Shown here piece by piece: positions 11,473 to 17,765 of a DNA stretch of 64,000 nt (positions are counted from its first letter, which is position 1; every line of letters starts with the position of its first letter). The position numbers and the translations under genes were made by a program. The notes under the pieces were generated by a model. It did not search any database. It saw only the letters and a list, made by a program, of their open reading frames with translations, and was not told the DNA's origin. This stretch comes from Fidelibacterota bacterium (GTDB lineage Bacteria > Fidelibacterota > Marinisomatia > Marinisomatales > TCS55). The stretch lies in assembly GCA_004124385.1 (NCBI GenBank), contig SCKN01000001.1:124001-188000 (forward strand), read 5' to 3'.

Positions 11473-13698
11473 ATGAAACGGTTTTATACATTTATACTAA
11501 TTATATTTATCAGTTTGAATAGCTTGGCCAATGCCGAAGCCATTGCAAGGATAATGAAATCAAATGGTGATGTTATGTTAAAAAGACTAGGAAAATCATC
11601 ATTTTCTACTCAAGCTAAACCGGGGCATGGTATTAATAATGGTGATGCCATTCGTGTCGGTGAAACGGGATTTGCAGTCGTTATTTTTATAGATGACCGT
11701 TCTGTTATAAAAATTCGTGAAAATACAGAATTTCAATTTATTGATTCACCTAGTACTCGAACGATCGACTTGGAACAAGGTATTATATTCAATAAAATAT
11801 CCAAACAGCGTGATAAAACGTTCAGAGTTGAAACACCTGTTTCAGTAGCATCTGTAAAAGGAACTGATTTCGCTGTTGTATCTGACCCTCTTGGAATTGA
11901 TCAATTTTTCTGCCAGGAAGGTAATTTTGATGTATATAATTTAGTCAGCGGTCAAACAATAAATGTTCAGCCGGGGCAGCAAGCAATTTCAAATGCACTA
12001 GGTACGTTAGTAAAACAACCGTTTAGTCCAGAAGATTATCCTGAAGAACCGGATGTGGATGTTGAAGATATTGAAGAACAGCCGGAGCCAGAAGAAACTG
12101 AACCCGAACCTGAAGAACAGCCGGAGCCAGAAGAAACTGAACCCGAACCTGAAGAACAGCCGGAGCCAGAAGAAACTGAACCCGAACCTGAAGAACAGCC
12201 GGAATCGACTGAAGAAGCTCCTGAATCAACTCCAGAAGCCGAAAAGCCATTCAATATGGGGTTGGGTATCGGATCTGTTACAATAGATGGAATGTTATAT
12301 AATCAATTAGCACTTCGACCTGAATTCAATATTGGTAAACTGGGCATTGGCTTGGATCTTGTTGTTTATATCGATAATGAAGGCAATGTGCGACCAAATG
12401 AATGGGATATGAAAAATGATCCGTCCGTAATTATGGATAAAATTCTGTATCTCCGCTGGGGACAAAAAGAAGATCCGTTTTGGATTAAATTCGGTTCTCT
12501 GGACAATGTGACTCTTGGCTACGGTGGGTTGCTCATGGGTTATTCCAACATGATGGAATTTCCATCTGTCCGCCAATTAGGCATTAACACAGGTGTGAAT
12601 TTTGGGAATTTTGGAACGGAATTATTTATGTCTAACCTAAAAGATTTTTCCAGAGGAGGAACATTATTAGGTTTACGAGGAACATATAAAGTCTCTAAAG
12701 CGTTCCCTCTAACGATTGGGGCTAATTTTGTAACTGATGTTAACCAATTCAGTGGTTTGAAAGACAAGGATGAAGATTCTTATCCAGATATATTTGATGA
12801 TTTTCCTGACGATAAATCATTGTGGAATGATACCGATGGTGACGGAATTCCCGATCCACATGCAGGAGTTGATTCAACAACATGGGATATTGATGCCAAT
12901 GGAAATAACATATTTGATGCCAATGAATTGGATCTTGGCTTGAAGGGAACTCCTTTCAGCATTGAAAATAATACAGCATCTGTAACTGGTTATGGTTTTG
13001 ATATTGGATATCCGGTCTTCAGCAATAAAATGATTTCCTTGAGTGTTTATGCTGAATTCAACTTTTTGAATATTCCTGAAGCAGGAGAAGAAGGGACTGA
13101 ATTTTACAGAGAAGCAAAAAGCGGAAGCGGTTTTTCTGTTCCAGGCGTTCGTATGAGTTTATTCAAATTCTTGAATGTGAGTTTTGAATATAGAATTAAA
13201 AGTGGTTATTACGTACCGCAGTTTTTTGACCAATCGTATGATATTACTCGAGTAACTCCCATTTATATTGATGATCAAACGCACATATTAACAAAAGATA
13301 TGATGCTATTTGCTGACTCGACTATGAATGAAGATTTAAATGGTTATTTCGGCTCAATAAGCGCAGATCTCTTTGGATTTGCAAGGATTAGTGGATCGTT
13401 TGCAAATATGACTTCTGAATCAAATACGGTTCAAAGTTTCATGGCTGCTTTAAATCTCAATGCAGATAAAATTCCAAAATTGAGTGTGGCTACTGCTTAC
13501 TATCAGCGTAATAATGATTTGAATCCATTTGACTTTGCCAATCCATCGCTCAATACAGTTTTAGGGTATAGACTGGGATATGCAGTAAGCAAAGGAGTAA
13601 GCGTCATTTGGGACTATCGTCAATTCTATCGCGATGACGGTACCGGTGAGCTTGAACCCATAAAGCAAACAACCATTGAAACTGCATTTGATTTTTAA
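11473..13698 (+). CDS. FecR-domain protein with Glu/Pro repeat linker and outer-membrane beta-barrel-like C-terminus
   Basis: A 741-residue exported protein. Residues 1-22 are a signal peptide ending 'LANA'. Residues about 25-165 form a FecR domain ('GDAIRVGETGFAVVIF', 'RVETPVSVASVKGTDFAV'). Residues about 185-260 are an acidic Pro/Glu linker made of a tandem repeat. The remainder has the alternating pattern of a beta-barrel and ends in an aromatic residue ('TAFDF'). Around residues 430-500 there are Asp-rich thrombospondin type 3-like loops ('DTDGDGIPDP', 'DIDANGNNIFDANELDLG') that may bind calcium. FecR domains usually sit in sigma/anti-sigma systems, but here no transmembrane anti-sigma layout or sigma factor is seen, so an outer-membrane or periplasmic role is more likely. 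Its stop overlaps the next start (TAATG). Confidence 0.8.
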   Translation: MKRFYTFILIIFISLNSLANAEAIARIMKSNGDVMLKRLGKSSFSTQAKPGHGINNGDAIRVGETGFAVVIFIDDRSVIKIRENTEFQFIDSPSTRTIDLEQGIIFNKISKQRDKTFRVETPVSVASVKGTDFAVVSDPLGIDQFFCQEGNFDVYNLVSGQTINVQPGQQAISNALGTLVKQPFSPEDYPEEPDVDVEDIEEQPEPEETEPEPEEQPEPEETEPEPEEQPEPEETEPEPEEQPESTEEAPESTPEAEKPFNMGLGIGSVTIDGMLYNQLALRPEFNIGKLGIGLDLVVYIDNEGNVRPNEWDMKNDPSVIMDKILYLRWGQKEDPFWIKFGSLDNVTLGYGGLLMGYSNMMEFPSVRQLGINTGVNFGNFGTELFMSNLKDFSRGGTLLGLRGTYKVSKAFPLTIGANFVTDVNQFSGLKDKDEDSYPDIFDDFPDDKSLWNDTDGDGIPDPHAGVDSTTWDIDANGNNIFDANELDLGLKGTPFSIENNTASVTGYGFDIGYPVFSNKMISLSVYAEFNFLNIPEAGEEGTEFYREAKSGSGFSVPGVRMSLFKFLNVSFEYRIKSGYYVPQFFDQSYDITRVTPIYIDDQTHILTKDMMLFADSTMNEDLNGYFGSISADLFGFARISGSFANMTSESNTVQSFMAALNLNADKIPKLSVATAYYQRNNDLNPFDFANPSLNTVLGYRLGYAVSKGVSVIWDYRQFYRDDGTGELEPIKQTTIETAFDF
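12073..12203 (+). repeat. 39-bp perfect tandem repeat, three copies plus a partial
   Basis: Three identical 39-base units begin at 12073, 12112 and 12151, followed by a 14-base partial unit. Each unit encodes 13 residues, EEQPEPEETEPEP, in the linker of the FecR/barrel protein. Because 39 is a multiple of three, copy number can change without breaking the frame. Confidence 0.97.
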
Positions 13699-13856
13699 TG
13701 GGTAAAGTAACAATCGAAGATGGCGATAAAACTGTTTATCGCTATGATGCCAGCGCCAAAACGTTTAAAAATGCAGCAATTTTTTTATTCACTCTTGCAG
13801 CAGGAATGGTTGTGGTAGCAATCATTTGGTTCTCGAATTTTAAAGGAATACAATGA
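13698..13856 (+). CDS. 52-residue single-pass membrane protein
   Basis: A small gene. The product has a polar N-terminus (MGKVTIEDGDKTVYRYDAS) followed by a transmembrane helix at about residues 24-45 ('AAIFLFTLAAGMVVVAIIW') and a short tail. Its ATG overlaps the FecR/barrel stop (TAATG) and its TGA overlaps the start of the SelW-like gene (ATGA), so it is embedded in a translationally coupled chain. That positioning is the main evidence that it is real. Function unknown; the overlap suggests it may act with the selenoprotein or the barrel protein. Confidence 0.7.
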   Translation: MGKVTIEDGDKTVYRYDASAKTFKNAAIFLFTLAAGMVVVAIIWFSNFKGIQ

Positions 13857-14083
13857 ATATAATTATTGAATACTGCACTGTTTGAAATTACTTACCACGA
13901 GCGGCCGGTCTGGCCAACGAACTTTTGGGAAAGTATGGAACGCAGATTAATCGTTTAACCATGGTGCCGTCTGGCGGTGGGGTATATGAAATAACGAAAG
14001 ATGACTCATTGATCTTTTCAAAAAAGAAACTCGATCGTTTTCCCGATGATGGTGAAATTATCAAACTCATTGAAAATAATTAA
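13853..14083 (+). CDS. SelW/Rdx-family selenoprotein, Sec encoded by in-frame UGA at 13883
   Basis: A 76-residue protein if the TGA at 13883-13885 is read as selenocysteine. It starts MNIIIEYCTVUNYLPRAA, with the redox motif C8-x-x-U11 in the first beta-alpha loop, exactly where SelW, SelT and SelH-type (Rdx) proteins carry CxxU or CxxC. The rest matches the family throughout: 'LANELL', 'INRLTMVPSGGGVYEI', 'LIFSKKKLDRFPDDGEI'. These thioredoxin-like proteins are thought to use the Cys-Sec pair in thiol redox reactions. Conservation continues on both sides of the UGA without any frame change, and there is no start between the UGA and the conserved core, so a truncated peptide is unlikely. The ATG overlaps the previous stop (ATGA); the next gene overlaps its 3' end. 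SelA, SelB, SelD and tRNA-Sec are not in this window, so recoding depends on genes elsewhere. Confidence 0.88.
13883..13934 (+). promoter_or_regulatory. Bacterial SECIS-like hairpin following UGA
   Basis: Directly after the UGA there is a hairpin whose apical part is GGCC-GGTCT-GGCC (13903-13915). The loop GGTCT is the same as the apical loop I recall for the Escherichia coli fdhF SECIS, including the GU that contacts SelB. An outer stem can form between ACTTACC (13890-13896) and GGGAAAGT (13927-13934) with one mismatch. The loop lies 21 bases after the UGA, in the range known for bacterial SECIS elements. Folding was done by eye. Confidence 0.75.
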
Positions 14084-14846
14084 ATTTATTCTTCCTGTAT
14101 GCTTTCTGGCAATTGTTTTTGGACAGGATGGAGAAATCATTCCCTTAAGCCAAAAAGTCGGCTTAACACTTGACGCTGAAGAAAATTTATTCTATAATGT
14201 TTATTCTGATATTGACGGCTTTGAAAGCGCACAATTTTATGAAATAAGTATACAGACAGTTATTGCCAGAATTTCATACGTACAATACAGTCAACAAAAG
14301 ACATCAAAGCGTAAATATAAAATGATGGATTTTTTGCGCATGAAGGAAGCAGTAGATGTACAACCCATAATCACAGTTGAAGACAGACTGTTGGTTAGAG
14401 AGAATTTGACGTATTTACAAACAGATGAAATATTAAGCGGTATTCAGGAAGATCAGTATGTAATAATCTATCATCGAAGCGGCAGGAGAATTCGTGGTAC
14501 ATTGAAGGAATACGGTAATAAAAATTTGATAATTCAAACACCCGTTTCATTAGAGAAAATTCCTATTTGGGATATGGAGTCCATATCATACAGGGAAGGA
14601 ATTAATTATCATAGCAATTGGAAATTTCCATTATATGCATTTTCAGCATTGGCCGGATTAATATTAGCAGAAAGTTGGAATAAACAAACGCGACCAAATA
14701 TTGATAGTGTTTGGTATTATCGCTTTTTGGGGTCCATGGCAGGATTATTAGCAGGAAGTGAAGCATTTCAAACATTTAATGTGTTAACTTCTCCCAAGAC
14801 ATTTTTTGCACTAACACCGGAAGAAATGGATAGATTAAAGGAGTAA
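14046..14846 (+). CDS. Exported hypothetical protein with C-terminal hydrophobic segments
   Basis: Up to 266 residues. The N-terminus has a signal-peptide-like stretch ('IIKFILPVCFLAIVFGQ'). A middle segment, 'YVIIYHRSGRRIRGTLKEY', resembles a small beta-barrel (SH3/Sm-like) strand pattern. Two hydrophobic stretches follow near residues 195-215 and 225-240. The start is uncertain: ATG at 14046 or 14049 overlaps the SelW-like gene by up to 38 bases, whereas a TTG at 14070 would give a compact signal peptide MKIIKFILPVCF. It is fourth in the coupled chain FecR/barrel - small membrane protein - SelW. Family not recognised. Confidence 0.7.
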   Translation: MMVKLSNSLKIIKFILPVCFLAIVFGQDGEIIPLSQKVGLTLDAEENLFYNVYSDIDGFESAQFYEISIQTVIARISYVQYSQQKTSKRKYKMMDFLRMKEAVDVQPIITVEDRLLVRENLTYLQTDEILSGIQEDQYVIIYHRSGRRIRGTLKEYGNKNLIIQTPVSLEKIPIWDMESISYREGINYHSNWKFPLYAFSALAGLILAESWNKQTRPNIDSVWYYRFLGSMAGLLAGSEAFQTFNVLTSPKTFFALTPEEMDRLKE

Positions 14847-15401: not shown

Positions 15402-15474
15402 GGGGCCGTAGCTCAGTTGGGAGAGCGCAGCGTTCGCAATGCTGAGGCCGTCGGTTCAATCCCGATCGGCTCCA
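15402..15474 (+). tRNA. tRNA-Ala(CGC)
   Basis: The acceptor stem GGGGCCG/CGGCTCC contains the G3-U70 pair that identifies alanine tRNAs. The anticodon stem CAGCG/TGCTG holds the loop TTCGCAA, anticodon CGC (codon GCG). The T arm is GTCGG-TTCAATC-CCGAT. The discriminator is A and no CCA is encoded. It lies about 50 bases upstream of the SRP RNA and may share its transcript. Confidence 0.93.
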
Positions 15475-15523: not shown

Positions 15524-15785
15524 GTGGTCGTGCTAGATGGGGAATTAGCGGTGCCCTGTAACCTGCAATCCGCTAAAGCAGGATCAATCGCCATAGTGCG
15601 GCTTATGCTGTGCGGCAGAAAAGGTGTAAGTGATGTTGAAGTTTCAACCCATCGCAATGGATGCCCACTAAACTCCGTCAGGACCGGAAGGTAGCAGCGG
15701 TAGGTGTCGCTTTCATGTGCCGATGGATCATTGGAATGGAATTAACTGCTGCTTGGATGCTGTATCCAGATAGGACAAGCTATGG
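15524..15785 (+). ncRNA. ffs: Large bacterial signal recognition particle RNA
   Basis: Domain IV is recognisable at about 15675-15702 by 'GTCAGGACCGGAAGGTAGCA', the Ffh-binding hairpin with the GGAA tetraloop. The 5' part contains 'GTGCTAGATGGGGA', 'TAGCGGTGCCCTGTA' and 'TGCAATCCGCT', which correspond to the Alu domain of the Bacillus subtilis scRNA, so this is the roughly 270-base large form and not the short 4.5S form. The 3' part 'TTAACTGCTGCTTGGATGCTG' closes the long helix. Both ends are approximate. It forms the RNA core of the particle that targets nascent membrane proteins. It stands before dnaX, as scr does in Bacillus. Confidence 0.92.
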
Positions 15786-15841
15786 TGCACGGCCAATATT
15801 AACTTTGATTAGTTATCAAAAATTTTGTCATTAGTACATAA

Positions 15842-16010: not shown

Positions 16011-17765
16011 ATGACATATCAAGTACTATCATTAAAATGGCGTCCACAGACCTTCAGCGATGTTGTGGGTCAGGATCATGTTACTCAAACATTGAAAAAT
16101 GCCTTTGCCAAAGAACGTATTGGCCAGGGATATGTTTTTACTGGACCGCGAGGTGTAGGCAAAACTACAATGGCTCGTCTCATGGCTAAAGGGTTGAATT
16201 GCCAAAACCCAGTAGAATTTGAACCGTGCAACTCATGTTCATCGTGTTCAGAAGTAACTGAAAGCCGTAGTATGGATGTGTTGGAAATTGATGGAGCCTC
16301 GAATCGTGGAATTGATGAAATTCGCAATATTCGGGAAAATATCAAGTTTCCACCCATGAATTCTAAATATAAGGTGTATATCATAGATGAAGTTCATATG
16401 CTCACCACACAGGCATTTAATGCCTTATTGCGCACATTAGAAGAACCGCCGCCCCATGGGAAGTTTATTATGTGTACAACGGATATTCATAAAATGCCGG
16501 CAACGATAATTTCACGCTGTCAACGATTCGATTTCAATCGCATTAGTTCAACAACAATTACAGATCGCATGAAATACATTTTAGATGAGGAAAAAATCAA
16601 ATATGATTCTGAATCGTTATCAGCAATCAGCTTAAAAGCAGATGGCAGTATGCGCGATGCCTTGAGTATACTGGATCAAGTGATTTCCTTTGCAGGAGAA
16701 AAAATTGCATTTGATCAAATTTCAAGTATTCTAGGGCTCATACCGTATGATTTATTTTTCGATTTAACGACAGCCATAAAAGAAAAGAATGCTGAAAACC
16801 TTGTTCAAGTCCTCAATAATATTCGATCATTGGCTACTCCATTGGAAGATGTGGTGAATGGACTCAATCAACATTTGCGCAATTTACTCATTGGTACTGT
16901 ACCTGGGGCTGCATCATCTTTAGAGGTTAATCCCGAACTCCAGGAAAAATATGCAAACGAAGCTAGCGAATGGGATCGACGTGATTTAATTCGCTTTTCT
17001 CAAGTATTCAGTAAATTGGAACCAGAATTACGCAGAGCAGCGCAACCACAAATTCTTTTAGAATTAAATCTGCTTAAAATGTTAGAAATGGACCAATCTG
17101 TTTCTATAGAAAACATGCTGAATAATCTTGGTCAAAATAAAATTGTATCCAAACCATCGGTACAATACAAAGTGCCAGAAGTACATATATCTGAACCGCC
17201 TTCAATTGTATCAGAAAAAATTATAAAAGAAACCAAAGCTGAAGTGGTAAAAGTAGAACCACCAGTAAAAGTAGAACCAAAAAAAGTAGCAGCTAAAGAA
17301 GAGTCGATTAAAGAAGAGCTACTCAATAAAGATGATTTAATAAAAGACAGTCCTAAAGAAAAAACTGTAGAATCAAAAAAACAGGTAAACGAAAAATCAA
17401 CTCTTGATTTAAAAAATATCGAATCAAATTGGCACCAAATGATAACAAAAATAGGCACAATAAAAACGTCTGTTGCCATGGTATTGGAACATACAATGCC
17501 TATAGAATTAAATAATAAAAAGTTGGATGTTGCTGTGATAAATCAACCCCGTTTCAGTTTTAATCGATTGGAACGAAATCAGCAATTAATAGAATCAACA
17601 TTCGAAGAAATTTTTGAACAAACTGTCAGAATAACATTTATTTTTAAAGAAGAAAATCAAGACAAAATCAAGCATGTATCCTCTGAAACTCCAAGGATAC
17701 CTACAAAAGGTAATCCGGTTGTTAACCGTGTGATTGAAGTGTTTGATGGAGAAATTTTAAGATAA
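16011..17765 (+). CDS. dnaX: DNA polymerase III subunits tau/gamma
   Basis: A 584-residue clamp-loader ATPase. Walker A is GPRGVGKT at 45-52, a zinc module uses C64, C73, C76 and C79, Walker B is DEVH at 126-129, and the SRC motif ('IISRCQRF') follows. Residues about 1-365 make up the conserved clamp-loader part. A Lys/Glu/Pro-rich linker (about 380-460) leads to the tau-specific domain that contacts DnaB and polymerase. An A-run in the linker at 17279-17285 can direct a -1 frameshift to a nearby TAA, giving a gamma-like product of 428 residues. ebfC and recR follow closely, the usual dnaX operon. Confidence 0.97.
   Translation: MTYQVLSLKWRPQTFSDVVGQDHVTQTLKNAFAKERIGQGYVFTGPRGVGKTTMARLMAKGLNCQNPVEFEPCNSCSSCSEVTESRSMDVLEIDGASNRGIDEIRNIRENIKFPPMNSKYKVYIIDEVHMLTTQAFNALLRTLEEPPPHGKFIMCTTDIHKMPATIISRCQRFDFNRISSTTITDRMKYILDEEKIKYDSESLSAISLKADGSMRDALSILDQVISFAGEKIAFDQISSILGLIPYDLFFDLTTAIKEKNAENLVQVLNNIRSLATPLEDVVNGLNQHLRNLLIGTVPGAASSLEVNPELQEKYANEASEWDRRDLIRFSQVFSKLEPELRRAAQPQILLELNLLKMLEMDQSVSIENMLNNLGQNKIVSKPSVQYKVPEVHISEPPSIVSEKIIKETKAEVVKVEPPVKVEPKKVAAKEESIKEELLNKDDLIKDSPKEKTVESKKQVNEKSTLDLKNIESNWHQMITKIGTIKTSVAMVLEHTMPIELNNKKLDVAVINQPRFSFNRLERNQQLIESTFEEIFEQTVRITFIFKEENQDKIKHVSSETPRIPTKGNPVVNRVIEVFDGEILR
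17279..17296 (+). other. Probable programmed -1 frameshift site in dnaX
   Basis: In the reading frame the codons are CCA AAA AAA GTA, forming the slippery heptamer A-AAA-AAA (17279-17285). A -1 shift reads AGT AGC AGC TAA and stops at 17294-17296. The gamma product would have 425 + 3 = 428 residues, close to the 431 of Escherichia coli gamma, which uses A-AAA-AAG at the same relative place. A run of seven A could also act by transcriptional slippage, as in Thermus. A weak downstream stem (AGTAGC/GCTACT) is possible. Confidence 0.6.

Follow-up and report, generated by a model that had tools for sequence, protein, structure and literature searches.

SelW-like proteins are already known to be the commonest selenoprotein family in ocean bacteria (PMC1088965; PMC2398784), and 427 Sec and 56 Cys SelW-like forms were counted in GOS across all taxa (PMC2398784). 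That selenoprotein genes of the Prx and SelW-like kinds lie together in metagenomes has been noted in a review that lists the bacterial SelW-like protein as predicted with high confidence and not experimentally shown (PMC13188914). A 2016 survey recorded orphan selD only in three SAR406 single-cell genomes (PMC5029168), and a search of a paper library on this phylum and selenium turned up no account of its selenoproteins.

The stretch of 64,000 nucleotides analysed here (the window) belongs to a Fidelibacterota genome and was found to carry a SelW-like gene with an in-frame UGA at codon 11 (Table 1). The sequence-only reading had proposed a continuous SelW-like frame provided that this TGA encodes selenocysteine, and both the frame and the redox motif, C8-T-V-U11, are as claimed. 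With TGA translated as U, the 76-residue product is MNIIIEYCTVUNYLPRAAGLANELLGKYGTQINRLTMVPSGGGVYEITKDDSLIFSKKKLDRFPDDGEIIKLIENN. Ordinary gene calling was expected to overlook such a gene, and this is consistent with the list of open reading frames of at least 60 aa, which contains none in that frame at this position. That a small gene seemingly truncated by a stop codon is read through with selenocysteine is well supported, and the decoding of its UGA by SelB and a SECIS element is very well supported by the selenocysteine machinery of the host, the conservation of the UGA and the covariation within the SECIS hairpin. The reading as a selenoprotein gene decoded by SelB and a SECIS is considered nearly certain, and a redox function is expected from the family.

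Table 1 Features of the SelW-like locus in the window (positions are those of the window)
Feature	Position	Strand	Remarks
FecR-domain protein, long C-terminal region	11473..13698	+	PF04773, E 1.1e-10; first gene of the conserved neighbourhood
52-aa single-helix membrane protein	13698..13856	+	hydrophobic helix; conserved motif KTV[YL][RK][YF]DSGxxGF
SelW-like (SelT/SelW/SelH, Rdx family) selenoprotein gene	13853..14083	+	76 codons plus TAA; ATG at 13853, TAA at 14081-14083; profile matches
Selenocysteine codon (in-frame UGA), U11 of CxxU	13883..13885	+	TGA conservation among homologues
Bacterial SECIS upper hairpin	13903..13915	+	GGCC (13903-13906), loop GGUCU (13907-13911), GGCC (13912-13915); conserved G at 13908
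Uncharacterised protein	14046..14846	+	predicted hydrophobic segment at the N-terminus and two predicted helices at the C-terminus

Membership of the product in the SelW-like/Rdx (SelT/SelW/SelH) family, for which the sequence-only reading had suggested an alignment of the 76 residues, was established by near-full-length profile matches above the curated cut-offs: Pfam PF10262 Rdx (E 3.9e-22, residues 2-75), NCBIfam NF041051 SelTWH_Campy (95.2 bits, cut-off 88) and TIGR02174 CXXU_selWTH (61.5 bits, cut-off 34.2). Since the three profiles extend from residue 2-4 to residue 73-75, on both sides of the UGA, homology is continuous across the TGA. The CxxU motif is near the N-terminus, after the first beta strand, as the family requires. 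The best solved homologue is 2fa8 (Atu0228, E 1.9e-13), and the alignment passes through the site, so that YCTVUN faces YCTQCN and the CxxU of the window protein is aligned with the CxxC of 2fa8. The solved Rdx proteins 2fa8, 3dex, 2obk, 2oka, 2ojl and 2p0g are homologous over approximately residues 3-71, which points to a thioredoxin-like fold, while family knowledge suggests a redox function for the CxxU pair.

The hairpin announced by the sequence-only reading, with a GGTCT loop 21 bases downstream of the UGA, is exactly positioned, the loop starting precisely 21 bases after that codon. Folded as a single sequence it gave no signal (z = +0.13 against shuffles), so that the evidence for it is comparative covariation and not stability. 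This was evaluated on 127 distinct SelW sequences in an ungapped alignment beginning at the UGA, with a null in which codons were swapped among sequences sharing the amino acid (1000 permutations). Stem pairs +20 to +23 with +29 to +32, relative to the UGA, enclose the 5-base loop, whose second position is G in all 127 sequences. All four core pairs are intact in 109 of the 127 sequences, compared with 49.5 ± 4.7 under synonymous permutation, and the mean folding energy is -9.49 versus -8.18 in the permutations (sd 0.18).

A hairpin at this place might also arise as a side effect of protein conservation, through the codons for A-A-G-L-A, in which case it would be no SECIS. The flat fold of the window sequence agrees with this, as does the finding that, in the permutation test, the amino-acid sequence leaves no freedom at two of the four core pairs. 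Pairs +20:+32 and +23:+29, on the other hand, lie above all 1000 synonymous permutations: the former is complementary in 123 of 127 sequences against 63.4 ± 4.7 (maximum 77) and occurs as T-A, C-G, A-T, G-C, G-T and T-G, the latter is complementary in 126 against 116.5 ± 1.4 (maximum 121). Both bases of +20:+32 are third codon positions, which makes this pair nearly independent of the protein. Compensatory change is frequent on the protein tree, where +20:+32 underwent at least 36 changes of pair state with just 4 into or out of mispairing, and kinship of the sequences thus does not account for the covariation. In a distantly related lineage, whose peptide differs here (F-[DE]-R-V-S), the hairpin stands in an unchanged register, and its +23:+29 pair occurs as C:G, U:A and A:U. 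A mere by-product of protein conservation is therefore very unlikely, and the synonymous covariation shows that selection acts on the SECIS hairpin as RNA, independently of the protein.

Occurrence of the gene was surveyed in a phylum set of 245 genomes of Fidelibacterota/Neomarinimicrobiota (SAR406-type), 143 of which contain it. All SelW matches that span the site include an internal TGA, one having in addition a TAA at its far end, and the few matches devoid of TGA are partial and start beyond the site. The TGA is present at the U site in 127/127 distinct sequences, which were aligned on their TGA, and unselected translations agree. U occupies the CxxU position throughout the SelW loci read, and also in records from Desulfofustis, Desulfocapsa, Sulfurovum, Chloroflexi and Rhodospirillaceae. 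Replacement of the UGA by UGC or UGU, which the sequence-only reading had advised looking for in homologues, was sought in the phylum and not found; among phylum matches spanning the site there was no Cys codon, TAA or TAG. That the selenocysteine of the SelW-like protein is never replaced across the phylum is a mildly new observation. Two related genomes (loci L094 and L139) carry, about 3.2 kb downstream of the intact gene, a second, nearly identical C-terminal SelW fragment of about 35 residues, without the CxxU part; this fragment is a partial duplication.

These data bear on the possibility that translation really ends at the TGA, or that this codon arose by mutation, the gene being a pseudogene or the product of a sequencing error in a metagenome-assembled genome. 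TGA does serve as an ordinary stop elsewhere, in 9 of the 41 window ORFs of at least 180 aa, and the neighbouring 52-aa ORF terminates in TGA. Against this, the codon is TGA in every homologue read across the site, with neither TAA or TAG nor any sense codon in its place, the 65 residues downstream of the TGA are intact and conserved, with no decay of the 3' part among homologues that keep the UGA, and more than 130 separate assemblies show the gene with its TGA. The conservation of TGA in homologues already refutes a true stop or pseudogene, and this explanation is exceedingly improbable.

The distribution of selA in the phylum accords with selenocysteine decoding of the SelW gene. It was found in 178 of the 245 genomes, in 126/143 of those with SelW versus 52/102 of the others (Fisher p 1.5e-10). 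Seventeen SelW genomes lack selA, compared with 20.8 expected from genome incompleteness alone; at completeness of 90% or higher the values are 2 observed and 3.6 expected. One of the 17 retains selB, and both genes are absent from the remaining 16, two of which are rated more than 90% complete. As a refutation of Sec decoding these absences were rejected, their number fitting genome incompleteness, and real loss of selA/selB may have occurred in a few SelW genomes. With selA in 178 of 245 genomes, the earlier listing of orphan selD is not supported for the phylum as a whole; a likelier reason for it is that the single-cell genomes were incomplete or came from lineages in which the trait had been lost.

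The host genome of the window (2.09 Mb, 96.8% complete) was searched for selA, selB, selD and tRNA-Sec, and the machinery is complete. tRNA-Sec scored 60.7 bits (Rfam gathering cut-off 47) and was confirmed by ARAGORN with anticodon tca (UCA); selA scored 518 bits (G000:C1:437641-438987), the adjoining selB 363 bits (G000:C1:435791-437623) and selD 410 bits. The prediction that the host makes selenoproteins is borne out further by two more genes in which a catalytic residue is encoded by an in-frame TGA. Host selD itself has one at its catalytic position (SHGSGUACKIG, U18 in GSGUACK; L026:1480-2500), and a host peroxiredoxin has TPGU at the peroxidatic site (KASTPGUTVEGEGF; L157, minus strand, about 1444-1939), so that with the SelW-like protein the genome encodes at least three selenoproteins. 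When the window was scanned for further genes interrupted by TGA, no other convincing selenoprotein emerged; the single long TGA junction was rejected as a candidate, being nusA followed in frame by infB, as named from their sequences. Genome-wide reassignment of TGA (e.g. to Trp, Gly or Cys), for which nothing speaks beyond an in-frame TGA, is extremely unlikely, given that TGA terminates normal genes (NusA before IF-2, and the 9/41 ORFs mentioned above), that three redox or selenium proteins have an in-frame TGA where a catalytic Cys belongs, that the Sec machinery is complete and that a SECIS would be superfluous. Thus selenocysteine insertion is the preferred explanation, and the observation made in the sequence-only reading is confirmed and its interpretation supported by frame, family, machinery, UGA conservation and SECIS covariation.

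In the lineage of the window, about 46 loci share one gene order: FecR-domain protein, 52-aa membrane protein, SelW and uncharacterised protein. The FecR-domain protein is conserved upstream of SelW in the largest upstream cluster; the copy in the window has tandem EEQPEPEETEPEP repeats in the region 12023-12254. Relatives of the 52-aa protein, which gave no match in a Pfam search, are encoded immediately ahead of SelW in 47 loci, and in the window its ORF overlaps the SelW start as ATGA, with the translation of the two likely coupled. The listed start of the downstream uncharacterised ORF overlaps the end of SelW, and its true start may be later. The encoded protein is common to 46 loci; its AlphaFold model (pLDDT 85.6, pTM 0.47) gave weak, short matches to Sm/Hfq-like barrels in the PDB, none with E below 0.001 (3e-3 or worse; TM to the query approximately 0.2). 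These matches, which suggest at most a small Sm/SH3-like barrel region, were rejected as a guide to function. Further downstream, a bacterial large SRP RNA (Rfam RF01854, 141 bits) is present at 15528-15792, between a tRNA gene (15402-15474) and a dnaX-like gene (16011-17765).

In 62 of the 132 loci examined, the ORF just before SelW is small and encodes a hydrophobic helix, and in another lineage a separate small membrane protein is encoded upstream of it in 15 loci. These arrangements hint that the SelW-like protein may work near the membrane. In a further lineage (f13) a peroxiredoxin gene ends just before SelW, and in the four loci read through (L038, L046, L066 and L083) this peroxiredoxin has TPGU, giving tandem selenoprotein genes. 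The occurrence of the FecR-domain, tiny membrane protein, SelW and uncharacterised protein neighbourhood in many lineages is mildly new.

SelB-dependent insertion of selenocysteine at UGA is well established in bacteria. At this locus, the ribosome would reach the UGA at codon 11 of the SelW mRNA, SelA would make Sec-tRNA(UCA) from selenophosphate supplied by SelD, and SelB carrying this tRNA would bind the hairpin just 3' of the UGA, leading to selenocysteine insertion. The product would be a small thioredoxin-fold protein in which C8-x-x-U11 could form a reversible selenenylsulfide and act in thiol/selenol redox chemistry; judging from its sequence relatives, it probably carries electrons to a partner, for instance a peroxiredoxin, or serves as its reductase. 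A more specific proposal is tentative and, taken as a whole, rather unlikely: that Fidelibacterota SelW is an obligate selenoprotein acting at the envelope as redox partner of the FecR-domain protein, the tiny KTVYRYDSGxxGF membrane protein (with the ATGA overlap in the window genus) and the uncharacterised membrane or secreted protein, with the Sec-peroxiredoxin as partner in another lineage.

The recovery of this hidden gene shows that selenocysteine is used all across a marine phylum that is abundant and uncultured, helps to name the carriers of SelW-like selenoproteins common in ocean metagenomes, and offers, through its conserved neighbourhood, candidates for the SelW partner. The SECIS of E. 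coli fdhF lies a short way past the UGA and has a short stem and a loop containing G and U, features that the window hairpin appears to share. In comparison with its solved relatives, the window protein has CxxU where 2fa8 has CxxC, and the Rdx family as described by NF041051, TIGR02174 and PF10262 includes Cys proteins too, whereas the window protein has Sec. The gene thus belongs to a known selenoprotein family and its novelty is modest. The SelW-like selenoproteins known from marine metagenomes (Sargasso Sea, PMC1088965; GOS, PMC2398784) possess the CxxU motif and a bacterial SECIS that closely follows the UGA and has a conserved G in its loop, as found here; the present locus differs from them in that its host lineage is identified and in being part of a phylum-wide set without Sec-to-Cys replacement.
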